Positions 6,226 through 51,247 of a DNA stretch of 64,000 nucleotides are shown here, piece by piece (the stretch's first letter is position 1; each line of letters starts with the position of its first letter). The stretch lies in NCBI GenBank assembly GCA_019752015.1, contig JAIEMQ010000013.1:124001-188000 (forward strand), in the 5' to 3' direction. Under the pieces are notes generated by a model. That model did not search any database and was not told where the DNA came from. It saw only the letters and a list, made by a program, of their open reading frames with translations. This DNA is from Cyanobacteriota bacterium (GTDB lineage Bacteria; Acidobacteriota; Vicinamibacteria; Vicinamibacterales; UBA2999). Both the position numbers and the translations under genes were made by a program.

Positions 6226-7769
6226 TGCTTGGTGACGTCGCGTAAGAAAGTGAATTCAGCCGAGGGCGTCAGCTTGACGCCCTCGATTTCCGTACGCGAC
6301 ACGGCGACGTTGGTCTTGTACCACAGGCTGATGTACGGCGCGTCTTCAGCCAGCAGCCGCTGAGCATCGCCGTAATATTTCCGGCGCTCGTCGTCAGTCG
6401 CGGCCGCCATCGCCGCATCGATCAAACGATCGACTTCAGGATTCTCGTAGTAGCCGCGATTGAATCCATTCGGCGGCATCTGCTTCGAGTGGAAGACGCG
6501 GCGCAGCATGTCCGGATCCGACACGCCGACCCATTGCAGCGTGAAGAGCTGGAAGTTGCCCTTCAGCACATCCGCGTAGAGCGTCGCGAACTCGTACGAG
6601 CGCACGTCGAGATCGATGCCGACCTGTTTCAGATCCTGTTGAATCACGGCCGCCTGCAGCCGGATGAACTCATTCGTCGATACTTTCAGCGACAGCCGCA
6701 GCCGCGGCTCCGGACCATCGCCGTCAGGATCGCGATAGCCGGCGTCTTCGAGCAGCGCGATCGCTTTCGCCGGATCGTGCGTGAACTGAAACACGGTCTC
6801 ATCGAATGCCCACGACGCCGGCGGCAGGATGCCGATCGCCGGGCGCGCCAGCCCGCGGCGCAAGTACTCGACGATCGCCTGGCGATCGATCGCATAGCCG
6901 AGCGCGTGACGCACGCGCCGATCCTTGAGCACCGGATCGCGCATGTTGATGCCGACGTAGGCGTAGTCGGTGCCGGGCGATTCGGCGATCGTCACCGACT
7001 GTTCCGCCGCCAGCTGGTGGATCACGTCCGGGGACAGATCGTTGACGACCATGTCCACGGTGCCCTTTCGGAGCTCGAGCGCGCGCATGATCTCGTCGGG
7101 CACGACTTTCAGCACGACGCCGTCGTTGGCCGGCTTGCCGCGGAAGTAGTCGGCGTTCGCGGTCAGCGTGACGTTGTCGTCGACCGCAAAGCTCACGAAC
7201 TTGTACGGCCCTGTGCCGATCGGATGATCGCGAAGGTCCGGGCCCGCGCCTTCCGGCACGACCGGCATTACCAGGTTGATTGGAAACGATCCGAAGGGCT
7301 CTTTCAGCACGAAGCGAACGGTGTAGGGGTCGACGGCTTCAACCCGGTCGAGCGATCGATACGCGCCCTTTCGCGGCGAGACGAACTTCGGATCGATAAA
7401 GCTGCCAAACGTGAAGACCACATCGTCCGCCGTCAGCTCGTGACCGTCGTGAAAGCGAACGCCTTCTCGGAGGTGAACGATATACGTCACCGGATCGGTC
7501 TGCTCCCAGCTCGATGCCAGCCCGCCAACGACGCGCAGCTTGTCATCGAGCGCCAGCAGGTAGTCGTAAATCAGCGTGTGAATGCGCTGCGATGTCTCAT
7601 CGCTGCCGATGCGCGGGTCGAGGCTGTTTGGCGAGCTGAGTACCGCGACGGTTACGACACCGTTCCTCGGTGGGGTTTGGCAGCCAACACCATACACAGA
7701 AGCACCGAAGCACAGAACCACGGAACAAACGTATTTAACAAAAGGACTTCTATGCTTCTGTGATTCCAT
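6222..7769 (-). CDS. Extracellular solute-binding protein, family 5 (oligopeptide/nickel type), probable lipoprotein
   Basis: A 515-residue periplasmic binding protein of the DppA/OppA type. Features include LSSPNSLDPRIGSDETSQRIH after the leader, LREGVRFHDGHELTADDVVFTF, HPIGTGPYKFV, and the late VRHALGYAIDRQAIV. The N-terminal leader ends in a weak lipobox with Cys at about residue 30. No permease or ATPase genes accompany it, so it may work with transporters elsewhere. Its leader is encoded inside a word-like repeat (CACAGAA repeats on the other strand), so the start at 7769 is less certain than the body. It follows mutS on the same strand after 23 bases. Confidence 0.82.
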   Translation of the reverse strand: MESQKHRSPFVKYVCSVVLCFGASVYGVGCQTPPRNGVVTVAVLSSPNSLDPRIGSDETSQRIHTLIYDYLLALDDKLRVVGGLASSWEQTDPVTYIVHLREGVRFHDGHELTADDVVFTFGSFIDPKFVSPRKGAYRSLDRVEAVDPYTVRFVLKEPFGSFPINLVMPVVPEGAGPDLRDHPIGTGPYKFVSFAVDDNVTLTANADYFRGKPANDGVVLKVVPDEIMRALELRKGTVDMVVNDLSPDVIHQLAAEQSVTIAESPGTDYAYVGINMRDPVLKDRRVRHALGYAIDRQAIVEYLRRGLARPAIGILPPASWAFDETVFQFTHDPAKAIALLEDAGYRDPDGDGPEPRLRLSLKVSTNEFIRLQAAVIQQDLKQVGIDLDVRSYEFATLYADVLKGNFQLFTLQWVGVSDPDMLRRVFHSKQMPPNGFNRGYYENPEVDRLIDAAMAAATDDERRKYYGDAQRLLAEDAPYISLWYKTNVAVSRTEIEGVKLTPSAEFTFLRDVTKH

Positions 7770-7782
7770 GATTCTGTGTATG
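7691..7782. repeat. Inverted pair of CACAGAA-type word repeats
   Basis: CATACACAGAA at 7691-7701 is repeated in perfect inverted orientation at 7772-7782. The flanking sequence on each side carries further degenerate copies (CACAGAA, CACGGAA, CATAGAA). The pair spans the first 27 or so codons of the solute-binding protein and part of the gap to mutS. Confidence 0.6.
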
Positions 7783-7792
7783 TTTGTCCACT

Positions 7793-13553: not shown

Positions 13554-13557
13554 TCAG

Positions 13558-13948
13558 ACCAGGGCCACAGAAGGCACAGACTTTCCGATCTTGAGAAACA
13601 GGCGCGGACTATTTCACACCGATCCAGGAAAGCACCAGCGATTCAACGACCGTCACCATTTTCGCGTTCGGGTCACTGCTAGTGTTTCCTGGTCGCGATC
13701 TTAAGCCAGGACTACCTGGCCTCTACTTTCAGGACGCTGAGTCCTATTTTGCACGGGAGCGAGCGCCCGAAGGTTTGTGGAAGTCCGGACTGGAGGATCG
13801 TGTGAGTGCCGATGGCGACAGTTGGAAGGCCGACCACAGGCTGTTCGATTGGGGCAAGTGGGACGGCATTGTCCGGCCGGTTGTATCGCGAGACGCACCT
13901 GAGTGATTGGCACCGGTCTGAGCCAGCTGTGCCATCTGTGGCCCTGGT
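13558..13948. repeat. 391-bp segment bounded by inverted ACCAGGGCCACAGA-type repeats
   Basis: The left repeat (13558-13580) begins ACCAGGGCCACAGAAGG; the right end (13927-13948) is the same sequence inverted, with one mismatch over 22 bases. The same inverted repeat brackets the second GxxExxY gene. Between the repeats I find no confident gene. A 74-codon frame (13682-13906, GTG start) contains a compositionally ordinary stretch with DWGKWDGIVRPVV but has no recognisable homology and no ribosome site. This fills the 440-base gap between pssA and the sensor kinase. Confidence 0.6.
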
Positions 13949-13996
13949 GAACTAGAGTCTTGAAGGGCTGGAATCCTGACCGAATGAGTCAAGTTT

Positions 13997-21872: not shown

Positions 21873-22462
21873 TGGCTCCCGCACCTCCGGTCTGGGCCGA
21901 CACGTGGCTTCGCCTGTTACTGCCCGCGCGCGATCGCGAAACGGTCTCCGGCGATTTGATGGAGGAGTATCGCGAGAACATCCGGCCGCAGAAATCGCAG
22001 CTGGCTGCCGATGCGTGGTACATCGGACAAGTCGCTCGCTTCGCCTGGCGGCAAGGATTATCGGCGCTCGCGCTCGCCGCGATTTATGAGAGCCGGCTGT
22101 TGCTCGATTGGTTCGTCCCCACAACGAACTTCGCACCACGCTCTGAGGTCACGACGCTGCTGATGATCAGCACGCTGCTCGTCATCGGCGCTGCCTCCAC
22201 AATGAGAGCGCGTTCGTTCACGGCGGGCGTGGCAAGCACCGCCGCTGCGGTGATTGGGTCGGCCATCATCTGCACGGTTGCCACGGGGTTCATCTATGCG
22301 AATTGGCGAAGTGCCGAGGTATTGGCCGCCATCAACGGAAGCGGCGGGCTACGTGAAGCGTTCACGCTGCCCATCATGCTGATCGTGCCCGGCACGATCA
22401 TCGGCGCTCTTGGTGCCCTCGTCGCGTCGCTCAGCCACAGCCAGAATCGATCCACAGATTAA
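21869..22462 (+). CDS. Permease-prefix-domain membrane protein
   Basis: A 197-residue protein. The N-terminus (WADTWLRLLLPARDRETVSGDLMEEY) is the permease prefix domain usually found in front of MacB/FtsX-type permeases next to padR. Here it is followed only by three or four hydrophobic segments (TTLLMISTLLVIGAAS, VASTAAAVIGSAIICTVATG, LPIMLIVPGTIIGALGALVA), so no full permease is present. Translationally coupled to padR. Its stop codon lies inside the left terminal repeat of the insertion described below, so the last few residues (NRSTD) are repeat-encoded. Confidence 0.7.
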   Translation: MMAPAPPVWADTWLRLLLPARDRETVSGDLMEEYRENIRPQKSQLAADAWYIGQVARFAWRQGLSALALAAIYESRLLLDWFVPTTNFAPRSEVTTLLMISTLLVIGAASTMRARSFTAGVASTAAAVIGSAIICTVATGFIYANWRSAEVLAAINGSGGLREAFTLPIMLIVPGTIIGALGALVASLSHSQNRSTD

Positions 22463-22476
22463 TCACAGATTGGGAG

Positions 22477-22615
22477 GCGACCCACGCCGGCCTTCGGCCG
22501 GCGCCGACGAGCAAGAGGTTCCCAAAATCGAGAGACCACCAGCGCAGAAGCGTCTCTCGATTTGGGAACCTCTTGTTCGTCGGCAGCGCGGGGCGAAGCC
22601 CCGCGCGCGGGTCGC
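22477..22615. repeat. Cloverleaf-like compound palindrome
   Basis: An outer stem GCGACCC/GGGTCGC (22477-22483 with 22609-22615) encloses three hairpins. These are a left GCCGGCC hairpin (22486-22502), a central stem of about 30 bp (22505-22535 with 22551-22581, one G-T wobble and one bulged A) and a right GCGCGGGGC hairpin with GAA loop (22586-22606). It fills the gap between the permease-prefix gene and the GxxExxY gene. Confidence 0.85.
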
Positions 22616-22755: not shown

Positions 22756-23130
22756 ATGCAGGACCAACCACGGGACAATCAAACGTTTGAAATCATCGGC
22801 GCAGCGATGGAAGTACATCGCAAGCTGCACCGGGGGCTATTCGAAGACTTCTACTGCGAGGCACTCGCCATCGAATTGTCGCTTCGCGGCATCCCGCATC
22901 AACCGCAATGCGCCATTCAGCTCGAATACAAAGGTCGTCCTCTGAAACGGCCGCATCATCTCGACTTCATCTGTTTCGGAGACGTCGTTGTCGAGGTGAA
23001 GGCCGTGTCCGCGCTAACGCCGGCGGACGAGGCGCAACTTCTAAACTACCTGGCAATGACCAAGATCAAACGAGGCTTGCTCGTGAACTTCGGGAGCAAG
23101 TCCCTCGAGTACAAGAGAATGGTTTTGTAA
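22756..23130 (+). CDS. GxxExxY protein (PD-(D/E)XK nuclease-like), copy 1
   Basis: A 124-residue protein with the family signature GLFEDFY (G-x2-E-x2-Y) after FEIIGAAMEVHRKLH, and a nuclease-like core LDFICFGDVVVEVKA (D, then E-x-K). It ends LLVNFGSKSLEYKRMVL, typical of the family. The PD-(D/E)XK relationship is established for the family; its biological function is not known. The ATG at 22756 matches the family's start, because upstream codons lack similarity. The stop codon lies within the first unit of a 24-bp tandem array. A second, divergent copy is at 34344-34739; both are bracketed by inverted repeats. Confidence 0.85.
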   Translation: MQDQPRDNQTFEIIGAAMEVHRKLHRGLFEDFYCEALAIELSLRGIPHQPQCAIQLEYKGRPLKRPHHLDFICFGDVVVEVKAVSALTPADEAQLLNYLAMTKIKRGLLVNFGSKSLEYKRMVL

Positions 23131-23220
23131 TCTGTGGATCCGAACGACTTGTAATCTGTGGATCCGATCAATTTGTAATCTGTGGATCCGATCAATTTGT
23201 AATCTGTGGATCGGACCAAT
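23125..23220. repeat. Four 24-bp tandem repeats
   Basis: Units start at 23125, 23149, 23173 and 23197, each opening TTGTAATCTGTGGATC; units 2 and 3 are identical. A truncated unit continues to 23240. The spacing is constant with no variable spacers, so it is not a CRISPR array. Confidence 0.95.
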
Positions 23221-23238
23221 CTGTGTTTAATCTGTGGA

Positions 23239-24324
23239 TCAAGGTGTGGCCGCGGCGCCAGGTAACTCACCGAGCGCCTGTGGCACCGGCTCGAATCGGC
23301 GGCCGAAGCCTTGGAGCTGCCCCTCACGGCTGACCGTGATCAACTGCGTTTGCGTCTGCCGCACATCTCGCCGCACATACGGCTGGAGTCCGATCTCGCC
23401 GGCGGCAGCGGCGGTGACGCTTGGCTTGCCGCTCATCGGATCAAAACCAAGGATCTGATTCGACACCAGCGGCATCAACAGCGCGTCGCCGAGGCGCAAC
23501 GGTCCACCCGCGGGACGCGATGAGAGATTCGCTTTCCACCGCAGGTTGCCGGACTTGCGATCGACGGCGCGCAGGATGTTGTCGCGCGACGCGAAGTAAA
23601 TCCGCTTGTCGTCGGCGGTGGGGATGCCGGCAATGTCGCCGCCGATGTCCCACGTCCAGCGTTCGCGCCCGCGCGTGAGATCAACGCTCACGACCTTTTT
23701 GTCTCCGGTCCCGAACACCAGCTGATCGTCGAGCGCAAGAAGCGCTGTCACCGGCGCCGACAGCGTCTTCTCCCACACCGTCTCGCCGTTCGACAGTTGC
23801 AGCGCGACCAGGCGGGTGTCGGCGAGCGGCAGGAACAGTCGATCGAGCGCGGGGCCCGGCGCGCCCGCGAGCGGCGCACCGAGTTGACGACGCCACACCA
23901 ACACGCCGTCGTTCGCGCGAAACGCCGCGAGATCGCCGGCCGTGGTGGAGGCGAGCAGCCACCCCGTATCCCAGTACAACGGAACAGCCGCGCCTCCCGG
24001 CAGCGGCGTCTGCCATTTCATCGTGCCCGTCGCGGCCTCGCGCGCTTCGATCACCTGATCGGTCACGGTGAACACGAGGCCTTCGCCGGTCGCTGGAGTA
24101 AACGGTGTCTGCAGATCGAGCTGCCAGCGAATCGTGCCGCGGTTCAGATCCACCGCCACGAGCTTGCCGCCGTTGAGAGGCACGTACGCGGTCGTGGCAT
24201 CAAAGCCTGGTGCGGCCGACGCCGGCGTTTCGAACGCGGTGACCCAGCGCGCGTCGAACGACGCGGGTGCGGGCGTTGCCGGCGCCTGAAACAGCGCGAG
24301 CAGCAGCGCGAAGAAGAGCGCCAT
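23239..24324 (-). CDS. PQQ-binding-like beta-propeller protein (BamB-like)
   Basis: A 361-residue protein with an N-terminal signal peptide (MALFFALLLALFQAPATPAP) followed by a seven- or eight-bladed propeller of PQQ-type repeats, for example GGKLVAVDLNRGTIRWQLDL, ANDGVLVWRRQLGAPLAGAP, KKVVSVDLTRGRERWTWDIG and DNILRAVDRKSGNLRWKANL. No catalytic residues of quinoprotein dehydrogenases are seen, so a structural or assembly role like BamB is more likely. The ATG at 24324 is preceded by an in-frame GTG. The TGA stop sits at the border of the right terminal repeat of the neighbouring element. Divergent from guaA. Confidence 0.75.
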   Translation of the reverse strand: MALFFALLLALFQAPATPAPASFDARWVTAFETPASAAPGFDATTAYVPLNGGKLVAVDLNRGTIRWQLDLQTPFTPATGEGLVFTVTDQVIEAREAATGTMKWQTPLPGGAAVPLYWDTGWLLASTTAGDLAAFRANDGVLVWRRQLGAPLAGAPGPALDRLFLPLADTRLVALQLSNGETVWEKTLSAPVTALLALDDQLVFGTGDKKVVSVDLTRGRERWTWDIGGDIAGIPTADDKRIYFASRDNILRAVDRKSGNLRWKANLSSRPAGGPLRLGDALLMPLVSNQILGFDPMSGKPSVTAAAAGEIGLQPYVRRDVRQTQTQLITVSREGQLQGFGRRFEPVPQALGELPGAAATP

Positions 24325-32526: not shown

Positions 32527-32905
32527 ATGGTGAAATGGGTGCTGGCAACGATCGCCTTGCTCTTCGGTTTGGCCGGGAGCGCGGTCCTCATTTCAATGTC
32601 GAGCCGACAGGTATTGGCAACCCAGGGAAGCGGCGGTATTGGTGCGGTCAGCGCCGGATCGCTGAAGCGGTCTTCGAGCTCGGCCCATTCATCAGCGCGC
32701 AGGCGGCGTTGCGAATGGCGGCGTGGAGACGCGCTGTGCCCCGCGGGCGCCGCGATGGCACCTCGTCACGTCGGTGCTTTTGATCGTGCTGGTCATCGCA
32801 ATGCCGCCGGTGATCGCGCTGTCTGTGATCGTCCTTCAGGTCGGCATCACGATCGGTGCTCTCGTGCTGCTGGTGGTCCGCGGGCGCGCGGCTGACAAAG
32901 CGTGA
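32527..32905 (+). pseudogene. Frameshifted small membrane protein
   Basis: The ATG at 32527 starts a clear signal/anchor helix (VKWVLATIALLFGLAGSAVL), but after about 45 codons the coding signal shifts frame (IAEAVFELGPFISAQAALRM), and shifts again into a second membrane segment (HLVTSVLLIVLVIAMPPVIA, then ITIGALVLLVVRGRAADKA) that ends at 32905. Read together, these look like one two-helix protein broken by at least two frameshifts. No family recognised. Confidence 0.45.
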
Positions 32906-33243
32906 CATCGGAAGTCGCTGTTCGCATCGTGTTGCAGGATCCGCCTGCCGGTGTCCTGTACGGCATTCAGCGTGGCAAGGGCTCGAATTACCGCGTCGAC
33001 TTCGCGCAAACGCCGAAGCGTGGCGACGTGACGTTCGACTTCGCCATCGGGGTATCGGTCAAGAACGGCAAGCCAGATTTCAGCGGCGAGTACGTGCAGG
33101 GCACGCCGGCGCGGCGATTCATCTACATCGATGTCGGGACCTACGCCGGGCAGAAGGACACGCCATGGTCGCGAAGGATGATCGTGTCAACACCGCGCTC
33201 GTTGAAACCGCTGAGCGTGTCCGCTTTCCGCATGACATGCTGA
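32902..33243 (+). pseudogene. Truncated DUF5990 family gene
   Basis: From the GTG at 32902 the product matches the DUF5990 pattern (SEVAVRIVLQDPPAGVLYGI, later FSGEYVQGTPARRFIYIDVG and TYAGQKDTPWSRR). Just after WSRR (about 33180) homology stops, and the frame runs on through a piece of the lipoprotein-family sequence in a foreign frame to a stop at 33241-33243. The normal DUF5990 C-terminus is missing, so the gene appears cut by a fusion with the next fragment. Function of the family is unknown. Confidence 0.6.
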
Positions 33244-33463
33244 CCGGCTCGAGCAAGGACGGCACGCTTGCCGAGGGCGACTCGACTGCCGCGGCTGGAA
33301 AAGTACCGTCGGCTATGCCGTGCTCGGCCACAGTGACAAACTCGGCACGATCGGCCGCGACGGCAACCCCTGGAACTCCGCCCACCTGTCCGATGGATGC
33401 ACGGCCGGAGCATTCCGCCAGACCGGCGGCAACGGCCTCTTCTACTGCTTCGCGATCGACTAG
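33184..33463 (+). pseudogene. Partial, frameshifted copy of the lectin-like lipoprotein gene
   Basis: Two frames together give RFPHDMLTGSSKDGTLAEGD and then (after a one-base shift near 33280) CRGWKSTVGYAVLGHSDKLG and NPWNSAHLSDGCTAGAFRQ, ending FYCFAID at 33463. This mirrors the C-terminal half of the intact gene at 33552-34169. The N-terminal half is missing and replaced by the DUF5990 stump. A dispersed repeat follows 15 bases after the stop, exactly as for the intact copy, so the duplication included the trailing repeat. Confidence 0.65.
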
Positions 33464-33478
33464 AAAGCGCAGATTTAC

Positions 33479-33501
33479 ACCAGGGCCACAGAAGGCACAG
33501 A
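33479..33501 (+). repeat. ACCAGGGCCACAGA-type dispersed repeat
   Basis: One plus-oriented copy of the 23-base repeat also found at 13558-13580 and 34185-34207. The preceding bases (CAGATTTAC) are shared with the 34185 copy. The 50 bases up to the lipoprotein start hold nothing else recognisable. Confidence 0.85.
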
Positions 33502-33551
33502 AAGCTCCGAACATTTTTTCAGGTTCGGTGTCCAAACTCCTTCGGACCCAC

Positions 33552-34169
33552 ATGCGACTCATGTCTCCGGGTTTCATTTTGGCGTCGGTAATTCTCGGCG
33601 GGTGCAGCAGGCACGCCCCCGACAAGATGTCGTTCTTCGTCACCGGCGTCGCGACCAAAGAGGGCGGCAACCTCGGCGGCCTAGCCGGCGCGGATGCGCA
33701 TTGCCAGAGACTGGCTGACGCCGCGGGATCACCGAAGCGTCAGTGGCGCGCCTATCTGAGCGCAGCCGCCGATGGGAATCAGCCCGCAATTAATGCGCGC
33801 GATCGAATCGGCAAGGGGCCGTGGTTCAACTCACGCGGCGTCCAGATCGCGTCGAGCCTGGAGGACCTGCACGGCGCGCACAACGCGATCAGCCGGGCAA
33901 CCTCGCTACCAGAGACCGGCAATCGGCTGGCGTTCCCGCATGACATCCTCACGGGATCGAATGAGGATGGGACGCTGGCGAGCGGGGATGCGACCTGCCG
34001 CAATTGGACCTCCACCACCGGACACGCGGTGATCGGCCACAGCGACAAGCAAGGCCAACTAGGCACCGGCAATTCCTGGAATTCGGCACATCTTACCGAC
34101 GGTTGTTCCGTTGAGCTCCTCCAGGTGCGCGGCGGATCGGCGCGGTTCTATTGCTTCGCGGTCGATTAG
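33552..34169 (+). CDS. Lipoprotein with a C-type-lectin/DUF1554-like domain
   Basis: A 205-residue protein with a lipoprotein signal (lipobox LGGC, Cys18). The mature part reads MSFFVTGVATKEGGNLGGLA, GADAHCQRLADAA, WRAYLSAAADG, GKGPWFNSRGV, FPHDILTGSNEDG, CRNWTS, SWNSAHLTDGCS and FYCFAVD. Conserved cysteines and the Gly/Trp pattern resemble a lectin or endostatin-like fold (DUF1554 group); this is a tentative match. It is probably outer-membrane anchored and surface exposed. A decayed partial copy lies directly upstream. The stop is followed 15 bases later by the left repeat of the second GxxExxY element. Confidence 0.65.
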   Translation: MRLMSPGFILASVILGGCSRHAPDKMSFFVTGVATKEGGNLGGLAGADAHCQRLADAAGSPKRQWRAYLSAAADGNQPAINARDRIGKGPWFNSRGVQIASSLEDLHGAHNAISRATSLPETGNRLAFPHDILTGSNEDGTLASGDATCRNWTSTTGHAVIGHSDKQGQLGTGNSWNSAHLTDGCSVELLQVRGGSARFYCFAVD

Positions 34170-34184
34170 AACGCTCAGATTTAC

Positions 34185-34781
34185 ACCAGGGCCGCAGAAG
34201 GCGCAGATGGCTCAGATCAAAAAACGCCATATCGCGCTTGAAGTCATATCGCAAGATTTGCGACACGGTTCGCACGCATTTTCTCAGTCACGCCCGATTT
34301 CGGAGATTTCGCCGGGGCACACCGCTTGCGTCTGAAGAGCGGCATGTTCAACATCCCACCATCGTCACAAGACGCACGAACCTTCGCAATCATCGGTGCC
34401 GCGTACGAAGTTCACCGCGTTCTCGGCGCCGGCTACCTCGAAGTCTTCTACAAGGACGCACTCGAGATCGAATTCACCGAACGGCAGATCCAATTCCGGC
34501 GTGAGTTGCCGTGCTCAGTGCAATACAAGGGTCGGGACCTTCGTCGCGACTATCACGTCGATTTCATTTGCTTCGACGAAGTCGTCCTCGAAATCAAAGC
34601 ACGCTCCGTGACCGGACCAGCGGACCACGCTCAGGTGATCAGCTACCTCGCATCCACGCGGAAGCGTCACGGCCTGCTCTTGAACTTTGGAACCTCGAAA
34701 CTCGAACACAAGCGATTCATCTGGGAACCACGAACCTGACTGAGGTAAGTCTGTGCTTTCTGCGCCTTCTGTGGCCCTGGT
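34185..34781. mobile_element. Inferred 597-bp repeat-bounded element with second GxxExxY gene
   Basis: The 23-base repeat at 34185-34207 (ACCAGGGCC, then GCAGAAGGCGCAGA) recurs inverted at 34759-34781 with one mismatch. Between them lie about 135 bases without a gene and the GxxExxY gene at 34344-34739. The same inverted repeats bracket the gene-less segment 13558-13948. Mobility is inferred from the parallel with the element at 22449-23240; no transposase or target duplication is visible. Confidence 0.45.
34344..34739 (+). CDS. GxxExxY protein (PD-(D/E)XK nuclease-like), copy 2
   Basis: A 131-residue protein with signature GYLEVFY preceded by FAIIGAAYEVHRVLGA, and nuclease-like core YHVDFICFDEVVLEIKA (D, then E-x-K). 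The C-terminus HGLLLNFGTSKLEHKRFIW is typical. It is clearly related to copy 1 but far from identical, so the two are not a recent duplication. The ATG at 34344 is the first that gives the family N-terminus. Function unknown; the family fold implies possible DNA cleavage. Confidence 0.87.
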   Translation: MFNIPPSSQDARTFAIIGAAYEVHRVLGAGYLEVFYKDALEIEFTERQIQFRRELPCSVQYKGRDLRRDYHVDFICFDEVVLEIKARSVTGPADHAQVISYLASTRKRHGLLLNFGTSKLEHKRFIWEPRT

Positions 34782-34790
34782 GACTTACTC

Positions 34791-34835
34791 TGAGCTTTCT
34801 GAGCTTTCTGAGCTTTCTGAGCTTTCTGAGCTTTC
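34791..34835. repeat. Five 9-nt tandem repeats (TGAGCTTTC)
   Basis: Five exact copies of TGAGCTTTC lie between the right repeat of the GxxExxY element and the lptC start. If translated they would give (Ser-Glu-Leu)n upstream of LptC, but the true start is probably downstream. Confidence 0.97.
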
Positions 34836-34854
34836 TGTGGCTACAATCGGAGGC

Positions 34855-49519: not shown

Positions 49520-51247
49520 ATGATTCGGTACCTGGCCATCCGCAACCTCGCGGTGATCGAGTCGGTCGCCGTCGATTTTGAACAATCGTTCAACATCCTG
49601 ACGGGCGAGACCGGCGCCGGAAAATCCATCCTTGTCGAAGCCGTCGGCCTCCTCCTCGGCGGACGCGCCACGCAAGACCTCATTCGCACCGGCGAAGACA
49701 TCGCCACCGTTGAAGCGATCTTCGAGACCGACGACGGCAGCGAGCTGATCGTGCGCAGGGAAATCACGTCGCAGGGCCGCAGCCGCGCCTTCATCAACGG
49801 CGCGCTGGCCACTGCGGCCGCACTCAAAGATCTTTCGAATCGGCTCGTCGAGTTACACGGCCAGCACGAACACCAGCAGCTGCTCGATCCGGCGCAGCAT
49901 CTGGCGATGCTCGACGCGTGGGCGGGTCACGACAGCCTGCGCGCGGACGTCGCCGCCGCGTTCGCCACCGTGCGCGGCCTGCGCGACGAGCTCGATCGGC
50001 TTCGCATGGACGATCGTGAGCGGGCGGCGCGTCTCGATCTCGTGGAGTTCCAACTCGGCGAGCTGCAGAAGGCAAACCTGCAAGCGGGCGAGGACGAGAC
50101 GCTCGGCAACGAGCGGCAGTTGCTGCGCAGCGCCGACACGATCCAGCGGTTGTGCGGCGAAAGCTATGCGGAGTTGTACGACGGGGAGACCGCGGCGCTC
50201 GTCCAGCTCGGTCACATCTGGAAGCGCGTCGGCGAGCTGGCCGCAATCGATCCGCGGTTCGCGCCGTACCTCGATGCGCGTGACGCCATCAAGGCCCAGC
50301 TCGAGGACCTCGCCTTTACGCTCCGCGTTTTCGTGGACGGCGTTGATGCCTCGCCCGCGCGGTTGCAGCACGTCGAGGATCGGCTGGCGCTGATCGAGCG
50401 GTTGAAGCGCAAGCACGGCGGAACGCTCGAGGACGCGATCGCGCATCGCGATCGGCTTGCCGCGGAACACCGGGCGCTGACTGGCGGGCAGTCGACGGTC
50501 GCCGAGATTGAGCAGCAACTCGCCGACGCGGGCCGCAAGTTCCTCGCAGTCGCGATGAAGCTTTCAGCCAGCCGGCGCGACGCCGCGCCGAAGTTCGCGC
50601 GCCGGATCGAAGCGGAGCTCGGCGAGCTCGCGATGGAGCGGACCAGGTTCGAGGTCCGGTTGACGACCGCCGAGTCCGAAGGGCAGTGGGCCGACGCCGG
50701 CATCGACGCCGGCGAGCTGTTCCTGTCGCCGAACGTCGGCGAGGATCTCCGGCCGCTGGCGAAGATCGTTTCCGGCGGCGAGCTGTCGCGTGTCATGCTG
50801 GCGTTGAAGACGCTGGCGGCCGCGGATGCGGGGCCCGCGAAGACCCTGATCTTCGACGAGGTCGATGCCGGCATCGGCGGGCGCGTGGCGACGGTGGTGG
50901 GGCAGAAGCTCGCATCGCTCGGCGATCGATTCCAGGTCCTCTGCATCACGCACCTTCCGCAGATCGCGGCGTGCGGGCGGAGTCATTTCCTGATCGAGAA
51001 GAAGGTCGTGGGTCGGCGCACCGTGACCAGCGTGGACCGACTCGAGGACGAGGATCGGGTCACCGAGATCGCCCGGATGATGGGCGGTTCGGCGGCGGGG
51101 GAGAAGGCGCTGGAGAGCGCCCGCGAACTGCTCGATACGACGAAGGCGAAAGGCGAAAGCGAAAGGCGAAAGCCACAGAAACCAGGGCCACAGAAACCAG
51201 GGCCACAGAAAGCACAGAAGGCTCAGAGCAAGACCTCAAGACCTTAA
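49520..51247 (+). CDS. recN: DNA repair protein RecN
   Basis: A 575-residue SMC-like ATPase of double-strand-break repair. N-terminal Walker A LTGETGAGKSILVEAVGLLL, long coiled coils (about 150-350), and C-terminal signature KIVSGGELSRVMLALKTL with Walker B TLIFDEVDAGIGG. The last 25 or so residues (KPQKPGPQKPGPQKAQKAQ) are encoded by the dispersed CCAGGGCCACAGAA repeat in tandem, so the tail is repeat-derived. The stop TAA lies within the next repeat array. Confidence 0.96.
   Translation: MIRYLAIRNLAVIESVAVDFEQSFNILTGETGAGKSILVEAVGLLLGGRATQDLIRTGEDIATVEAIFETDDGSELIVRREITSQGRSRAFINGALATAAALKDLSNRLVELHGQHEHQQLLDPAQHLAMLDAWAGHDSLRADVAAAFATVRGLRDELDRLRMDDRERAARLDLVEFQLGELQKANLQAGEDETLGNERQLLRSADTIQRLCGESYAELYDGETAALVQLGHIWKRVGELAAIDPRFAPYLDARDAIKAQLEDLAFTLRVFVDGVDASPARLQHVEDRLALIERLKRKHGGTLEDAIAHRDRLAAEHRALTGGQSTVAEIEQQLADAGRKFLAVAMKLSASRRDAAPKFARRIEAELGELAMERTRFEVRLTTAESEGQWADAGIDAGELFLSPNVGEDLRPLAKIVSGGELSRVMLALKTLAAADAGPAKTLIFDEVDAGIGGRVATVVGQKLASLGDRFQVLCITHLPQIAACGRSHFLIEKKVVGRRTVTSVDRLEDEDRVTEIARMMGGSAAGEKALESARELLDTTKAKGESERRKPQKPGPQKPGPQKAQKAQSKTSRP

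Follow-up and report, generated by a model that had tools for sequence, protein, structure and literature searches.

GxxExxY genes with inverted word-array repeats: a probable new and widespread type of mobile element

GxxExxY genes, small and so far uncharacterised nuclease genes of many bacterial phyla, are linked to inverted arrays of a short repeated word, and units that carry the gene, together with gene-less hairpins built from the same kind of array, are present in some related genomes and absent from the same sites in others. The gene-plus-repeats unit looks like a widespread and previously undescribed kind of mobile element. Our main reading, to which we assign a probability of about 0.6, is a mobile system that resembles RAYT/REP and is built on an unrelated nuclease of the Cas4/RecB fold, with the catalytic role falling to the GxxExxY protein. 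Three other readings are weighed below, alongside the measurements that bear on them.

The focal unit and its relatives in one genome

The window, the whole 64,000-nt stretch of DNA that we analyzed, contains two GxxExxY units, and the one spanning 34184–34782 is the focal unit (Table 1). The earlier note on this DNA had described a 23-nt inverted repeat around the focal gene, and it is exactly as reported: positions 34185–34207 (ACCAGGGCCGCAGAAGGCGCAGA) and the reverse complement of 34759–34781 (ACCAGGGCCACAGAAGGCGCAGA) are identical at 22 of 23 positions. The word spacings claimed there are likewise accurate, at 9 nt in the focal unit (CGCAGAAGG followed by CGCAGA) and 11 nt in the other element (CACAGATTAAT followed by CACAGA). 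In an inverted-repeat search of the window, the focal arms measure 33 nt and are 88% complementary. The local inverted-repeat score at the focal gene is 56, compared to a maximum of 28 in 200 shuffles of its flanks, and the repeat is therefore not due to chance. When the whole window was scanned at 1256 sliding positions, the two GxxExxY genes took the top two places.

A profile search matched the focal gene to TIGR04256 (125.6 bits, curated cut-off 35) and to PF13366 (116.8 bits, cut-off 22). These are the only profile matches of its protein, with none to a Y1 (HUH) tyrosine transposase.

Table 1. Positions of GxxExxY units and related repeats in the window
Feature	Position	Strand	Remarks
Focal unit, left arm	34184-34216	+	word array CACCAGGGC CGCAGAAGG CGCAGATGG CTCAGA
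Focal unit, GxxExxY gene	34326-34739	+	TTG start; in-frame ATG at 34344; PD-(D/E)XK nuclease family
Focal unit, right arm (inverted)	34750-34782	-	minus-strand reading CACCAGGGCCACAGAAGGCGCAGAAAGCACAGA
Expanded 9-bp tandem array	34789-34839	-	six words (TCTGAGCTT); adjoins right arm of focal unit
Other unit, left arm	22449-22473	+	word type CACAGATT
Other unit, GxxExxY gene	22783-23124	+	profile match; G000:C5:146783-147124
Other unit, right arm	23216-23240	-	closes 24-bp tandem array 23124-23240
Extra copy of focal left arm	33479-33511	+	behind upstream copy of duplicated DUF1554 gene; no GxxExxY gene directly after
Inverted pair of focal arm type	13557-13949		no GxxExxY gene
Gene-less inverted pair	7694-7783		short loop; REPIN-like; word type of locus L007
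Single array of focal arm type	51172-51227	+	read through as recN C-terminal tail (QKPGPQKPGPQKAQKAQ)

This genome has seven GxxExxY genes. A comparison of the flanks of all such loci, as the earlier note had proposed, found inverted arms of short words at every one of them. One word type is common to both arms of each locus, and across the seven loci the type varies between protein types: CACGGAG (L001), CACGAAG (L002), CACAGAT (L003–L005), CRCAGA (L006, the focal unit) and CACAGAA (L007). In a sliding scan of 464 kb of the genome, three GxxExxY loci were among the top four inverted-repeat positions, and the fourth was an inverted stretch without CACAGA-type words or a word array.

The focal arm type is also dispersed through the genome in about 75 copies, while its reversed pattern has none. 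Most copies are single, and several lie near gene starts or ends. Two further inverted pairs of this arm type have no intact gene, one within the window (Table 1) and one at C16:64589–64799. In the latter, both arms remain together with the final 14 codons of a GxxExxY gene, 12 of 14 identical to those of the focal gene; judged from these remnants, it is an internally deleted derivative of the focal unit at another locus. The association of gene and repeat put forward in the earlier note stands but needs a qualification. Both single arrays and inverted pairs that lack the gene are also found elsewhere than at GxxExxY loci, in keeping with a dispersed family of repeats of which the gene-bearing unit is one form. 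Immediately upstream of the focal unit, positions 32856–34169 hold a tandem pair of DUF1554-like copies with the same arm after each, and the upstream copy is apparently frame-broken.

Breadth, polarity and word types of the arms

Each arm is built of repeats of a 7-nt word (C-R-C-N-R-A-G/T/A, CACAGAG-like) that points towards the gene. Individual arms are not palindromic; they are T-poor word arrays such as CCACAGAGACACAGAG, so self-pairing is impossible and the hairpin is formed by the two arms together.

We scored 79 loci from many phyla, archaea included, that were picked by closeness to one clade, so that the proportion of loci with a score of at least 36 (52 of 79, 66%) is not a family-wide rate. 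The same score was reached by 0.45% of positions shifted inside these loci, which were mostly coding (the sliding scans are the intergenic control), and by 7% of left and right arms paired from different loci. At 52 usable loci from genomes of the same taxonomic order, scores of at least 36 were obtained for 36 in inverted orientation, compared to 8 in direct orientation. A set of 177 loci from many phyla showed at least two words in both arms at 133, and at least three inward-pointing words in both arms at 88, compared to 8 loci with outward-pointing words and 0 of 286 control positions. Recognisable arms are missing from roughly a quarter to a third of loci. The earlier note had argued that the link between the gene family and this kind of repeat is more than an effect of duplication, and the recurrence of the link across phyla, in protein clades that use different words and at a frequency far from that of shifted positions (52/79 versus 0.45%), bears this out. 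CACAGA-type inverted repeats are not equally common around random regions, as determined by the window and 464-kb scans and by the 286 controls.

Arms are also present at a Bacteroides and a Sphingomonas copy. The unit of Sphingomonas parapaucimobilis (L187) lies between fabD and fabG of the fatty-acid operon, and independent GxxExxY units lie between trpE and trpG in Ramlibacter and Deefgea (L136 and L149).

Word type and protein lineage go together. In a tree built from 114 armed proteins, the six word classes require 20 changes compared to 43.8 after shuffling, and none of 200 shuffles was as low; the class ending in GAT, which occupies 16 rows of the protein tree, requires only 3. Paralogues within one genome bear the word of their own protein clade. 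In the global set, the nearest protein had the same word class at a frequency of 0.79 compared to 0.64 by chance (p = 0.004). Below 65% protein identity, finer word similarity alone stays significant (p = 0.0012), and the word–protein signal therefore fades with distance. Joint inheritance of the unit without recognition would explain why words track the protein tree, and recognition of the words by the protein would also explain it; the pairing renders recognition directly testable.

Presence and absence of units and gene-less hairpins in related genomes

At the site of the focal unit, three outgroup genera have recJ followed by lptC with no arrays between them, while other genomes of the focal genus have arrays or remnants there, in states and word types that vary by species. 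For a cleaner test, we took a genus with many genomes, searched 15 of these for the flanks of four units and aligned the sites. At three of the four sites, some genomes had contiguous flanks over the whole query, and the picture at the fourth site (L293) is less clear, several genomes having short inserts there that are not arrays. Arms are absent from the empty sites. Full inserts with the gene measure about 425–550 bp, and the short inserts of about 90–145 bp at the L301 and L292 sites are gene-less inverted word pairs. At one site the word differs by species (CACCAAG, CGCCAAG, CGCGAAA, CGCAGAG and CACGAAG), and both arms match each time. Such re-use of a site could be either repeated insertion or in-place replacement. 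One genome (G180) has an identical, distinctive hairpin at two of the four sites, which suggests recent spread in that lineage.

Gene-less inverted pairs 40–120 bp apart are common in other genomes, and gene-less arrays and hairpins are far more numerous than gene-bearing units. Two gene-less pairs fold as strong single-strand hairpins (z-scores of −8.1 and −9.1), and the short-looped pair in the window folds with a z-score of −4.9. A search for target-site duplications found a clear one (about 17–26 nt, score of at least 22) at 3 of 51 loci, compared to 0.4% expected, with no fixed length. The clearest is a 25-nt near-duplicate of the trpG start on either side of the Ramlibacter unit between trpE and trpG.

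These site comparisons bear on the proposal that the repeats serve the chromosome as binding or structural sites, which a domesticated nuclease processes or protects, with little present mobility. Such a role would agree with a gene almost confined to chromosomes (8 of 72,556 plasmid records, none on phages), with units that are orthologous between species (the sites of L294, L302 and L306) and with insertions that lie between genes. However, closely related sites are found both empty and filled, the empty state is without arms, and the word type at one site switches between species, yet both arms still match. We consider a domesticated role unlikely.

Another proposal, which we regard as highly improbable, is that the gene behaves like a homing endonuclease and spreads by cleaving the empty form of its site, the repeats being incidental. 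The nuclease fold and the independent trpE–trpG insertions would be expected of such a gene; however, arms are present at most loci with a fixed polarity, gene-less hairpins occur at the same sites, and the sites examined are diverse, intergenic and non-coding, with no conserved coding site. Insertion into a simple array would also yield direct flanks, not inverted ones.

In one genome (G119; L232–L261 and L262–L291), about 40 copies of a GxxExxY unit sit behind the transposase of an element that we take to be IS5-family by its ends and transposase. Most of these copies have graded deletions within the GxxExxY gene and retain both arms; in three, most of the unit has been deleted at a GATCCT micro-repeat. 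We considered the deleted copies as self-moving units and rejected this, as the unit sits within an amplified host element. Since the amplification is by the IS5-family element, these copies are left out as evidence of the unit's own mobility.

The GxxExxY protein, its possible role and comparable systems

In an alignment of 74 sequences, D79 and K91 are invariant, E39 and E89 are conserved in at least 90%, and the Q103-x3-Y107 pair is near-invariant. On this alignment, the conserved residues are identified as the PD-(D/E)XK core D...E-x-K, and the Q-x3-Y pair matches a feature of Cas4/RecB nucleases. The predicted structure is confident (pLDDT 92.5) and has the alpha-beta-beta-beta-alpha-beta fold of PD-(D/E)XK enzymes. 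A fold search returned a single match above Z 10, SSO0001 (Z 10.5), which we take to be a Cas4 protein, followed by a broad tail at Z 6–8 that includes many PD-(D/E)XK nucleases; the Z-scores of matches beyond Cas4 (Hjc, lambda-type exonucleases and MGME1) are too close to rank. GxxExxY shares with the Cas4, RecB and lambda exonuclease nucleases, its best fold matches, the conserved D, ExK and Q-x3-Y pair. Unlike them, it is a stand-alone protein of about 115–140 aa that lies within inverted repeats and not in a CRISPR or repair operon. A search by sequence found no solved relative. There was no convincing match among the PADLOC models of anti-phage defence (weakly AbiEii, E = 0.031) or in PHROGs, and Rfam gave only sub-threshold matches to microRNA hairpin models, which we took as chance.

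On the main reading, the GxxExxY gene and its two inward word arrays together form one mobile unit of roughly 430–800 bp, part of a larger dispersed repeat population whose members are mostly gene-less hairpins or single arrays. Within the arms, the GxxExxY protein would recognise the word type of its own unit, probably folded into a hairpin where the DNA is single-stranded or extruded, and would cut there. Host repair or replication could then copy the unit into a new intergenic site, and a gene-less hairpin could be copied likewise in trans. The relation of gene-bearing units to gene-less hairpins and arrays would then be like that of RAYT genes to REPs and REPINs.

The main rival holds that something else, for example RAYT (Y1_Tnp) or host replication and repair, moves a hairpin element whose ends are the arms, with GxxExxY as a passenger or selfish cargo. 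The excess of gene-less arrays and hairpins over gene-bearing units would be expected of such an element, and arms of the same kind can hold a different gene: at L348, L350 (the orthologous site of L293) and also L353, they bracket an HNH endonuclease gene with a partial SAD/SRA match. The HNH case is, however, a single orthologous site, shared by three genomes of one genus, and a more distant relative of the HNH gene has no arms.

Genome-level associations bear on the two candidate movers. Of the 149 genomes sampled from this phylum, 59 have the GxxExxY gene, which also occurs in many other lineages. Among genomes with at least five period-8 arrays, 20 of 21 have the gene, compared to 39 of 128 others (Fisher P = 1.3e-8, genome kinship ignored). 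The association of Y1_Tnp is weaker, with 19 of 21 array-rich genomes compared to 81 of 128 others (P = 0.0095, again ignoring kinship), and Y1_Tnp is common in any case (100 of 149 genomes). One array-rich genome is an exception in favor of the rival: G150 has 27 period-8 arrays, two Y1_Tnp genes and no detectable GxxExxY. By contrast, no Y1_Tnp was detected in G134 (86 arrays) or G155 (61 arrays), which disfavors RAYT as the sole mover. The word class also tracks the GxxExxY lineage inside single genomes, which counts against the rival. On balance, we find a passenger role doubtful, though the strongest of the alternatives.

The preferred reading, a mobile system driven by GxxExxY, has its closest parallel in RAYT/REP, where the gene is flanked by inverted repeats with which it coevolves and repeat abundance correlates with gene presence (Nunvar 2010, PMC2817692), and in REPINs, gene-less inverted doublets that form hairpins (Bertels and Rainey 2011, PMC3116915). 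In both systems, a nuclease gene lies between two inverted copies of a dispersed, intergenic, chromosomal repeat, the repeat type tracks the protein lineage, genomes with the gene tend to be those rich in repeats, and gene-less doublets occur as hairpins. Like REPINs and MITEs, the gene-less inverted pairs are present or absent at orthologous sites. However, GxxExxY is a PD-(D/E)XK nuclease and the RAYT enzyme a Y1 HUH tyrosine transposase, and the GxxExxY arm is a 7-nt word array and REP a palindrome; since enzyme and repeat both differ, the GxxExxY system is not a member of RAYT/REP. Unlike RAYT, the GxxExxY–arm association spans archaea and many bacterial phyla.

MITEs and their parent insertion sequences are comparable in having short inverted-repeat units and internally deleted derivatives of a gene-bearing parent. 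They differ in that no DDE transposase or consistent target duplication was seen here, and the ends of GxxExxY units are word arrays that vary by lineage. In the available part of a report on Thiomargarita, another PD-(D/E)XK family, of Rpn/YhgA type (PDDEXK_2), is suspected to be linked to miniature inverted-repeat elements (MITEs); that family belongs to PF12784 and GxxExxY to PF13366, and the same part describes no word-array ends for Rpn/YhgA (PMC4853749). Among 5.4 million papers searched, two name the GxxExxY family, one of them in passing, and no description of its repeats was found.

If GxxExxY drives its flanking repeats, this would account both for a nuclease family now without a role and for intergenic repeats of a common class, and the RAYT/REPIN way of life would have arisen anew with unrelated chemistry. 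We propose more tentatively, at somewhat less than even odds, that these units are pan-phylum mobile DNA in which a Cas4/RecB-fold nuclease recognises lineage-specific 7-nt word arrays as hairpin ends, and that they are the source of the CACAGAG- and CACGAAG-type intergenic repeats of environmental genomes.

Two minor observations concern the contents and surroundings of the units. A large hairpin lies between arm and gene in the other unit of the window (22480–22615, core CGAGAGAC...GTCTCTCG), and comparable large hairpins are found inside the units L003, L002, L020 and L033, with one on either side in L003. Arrays can also lengthen annotated proteins by low-complexity tails, as at recN in the window (Table 1).
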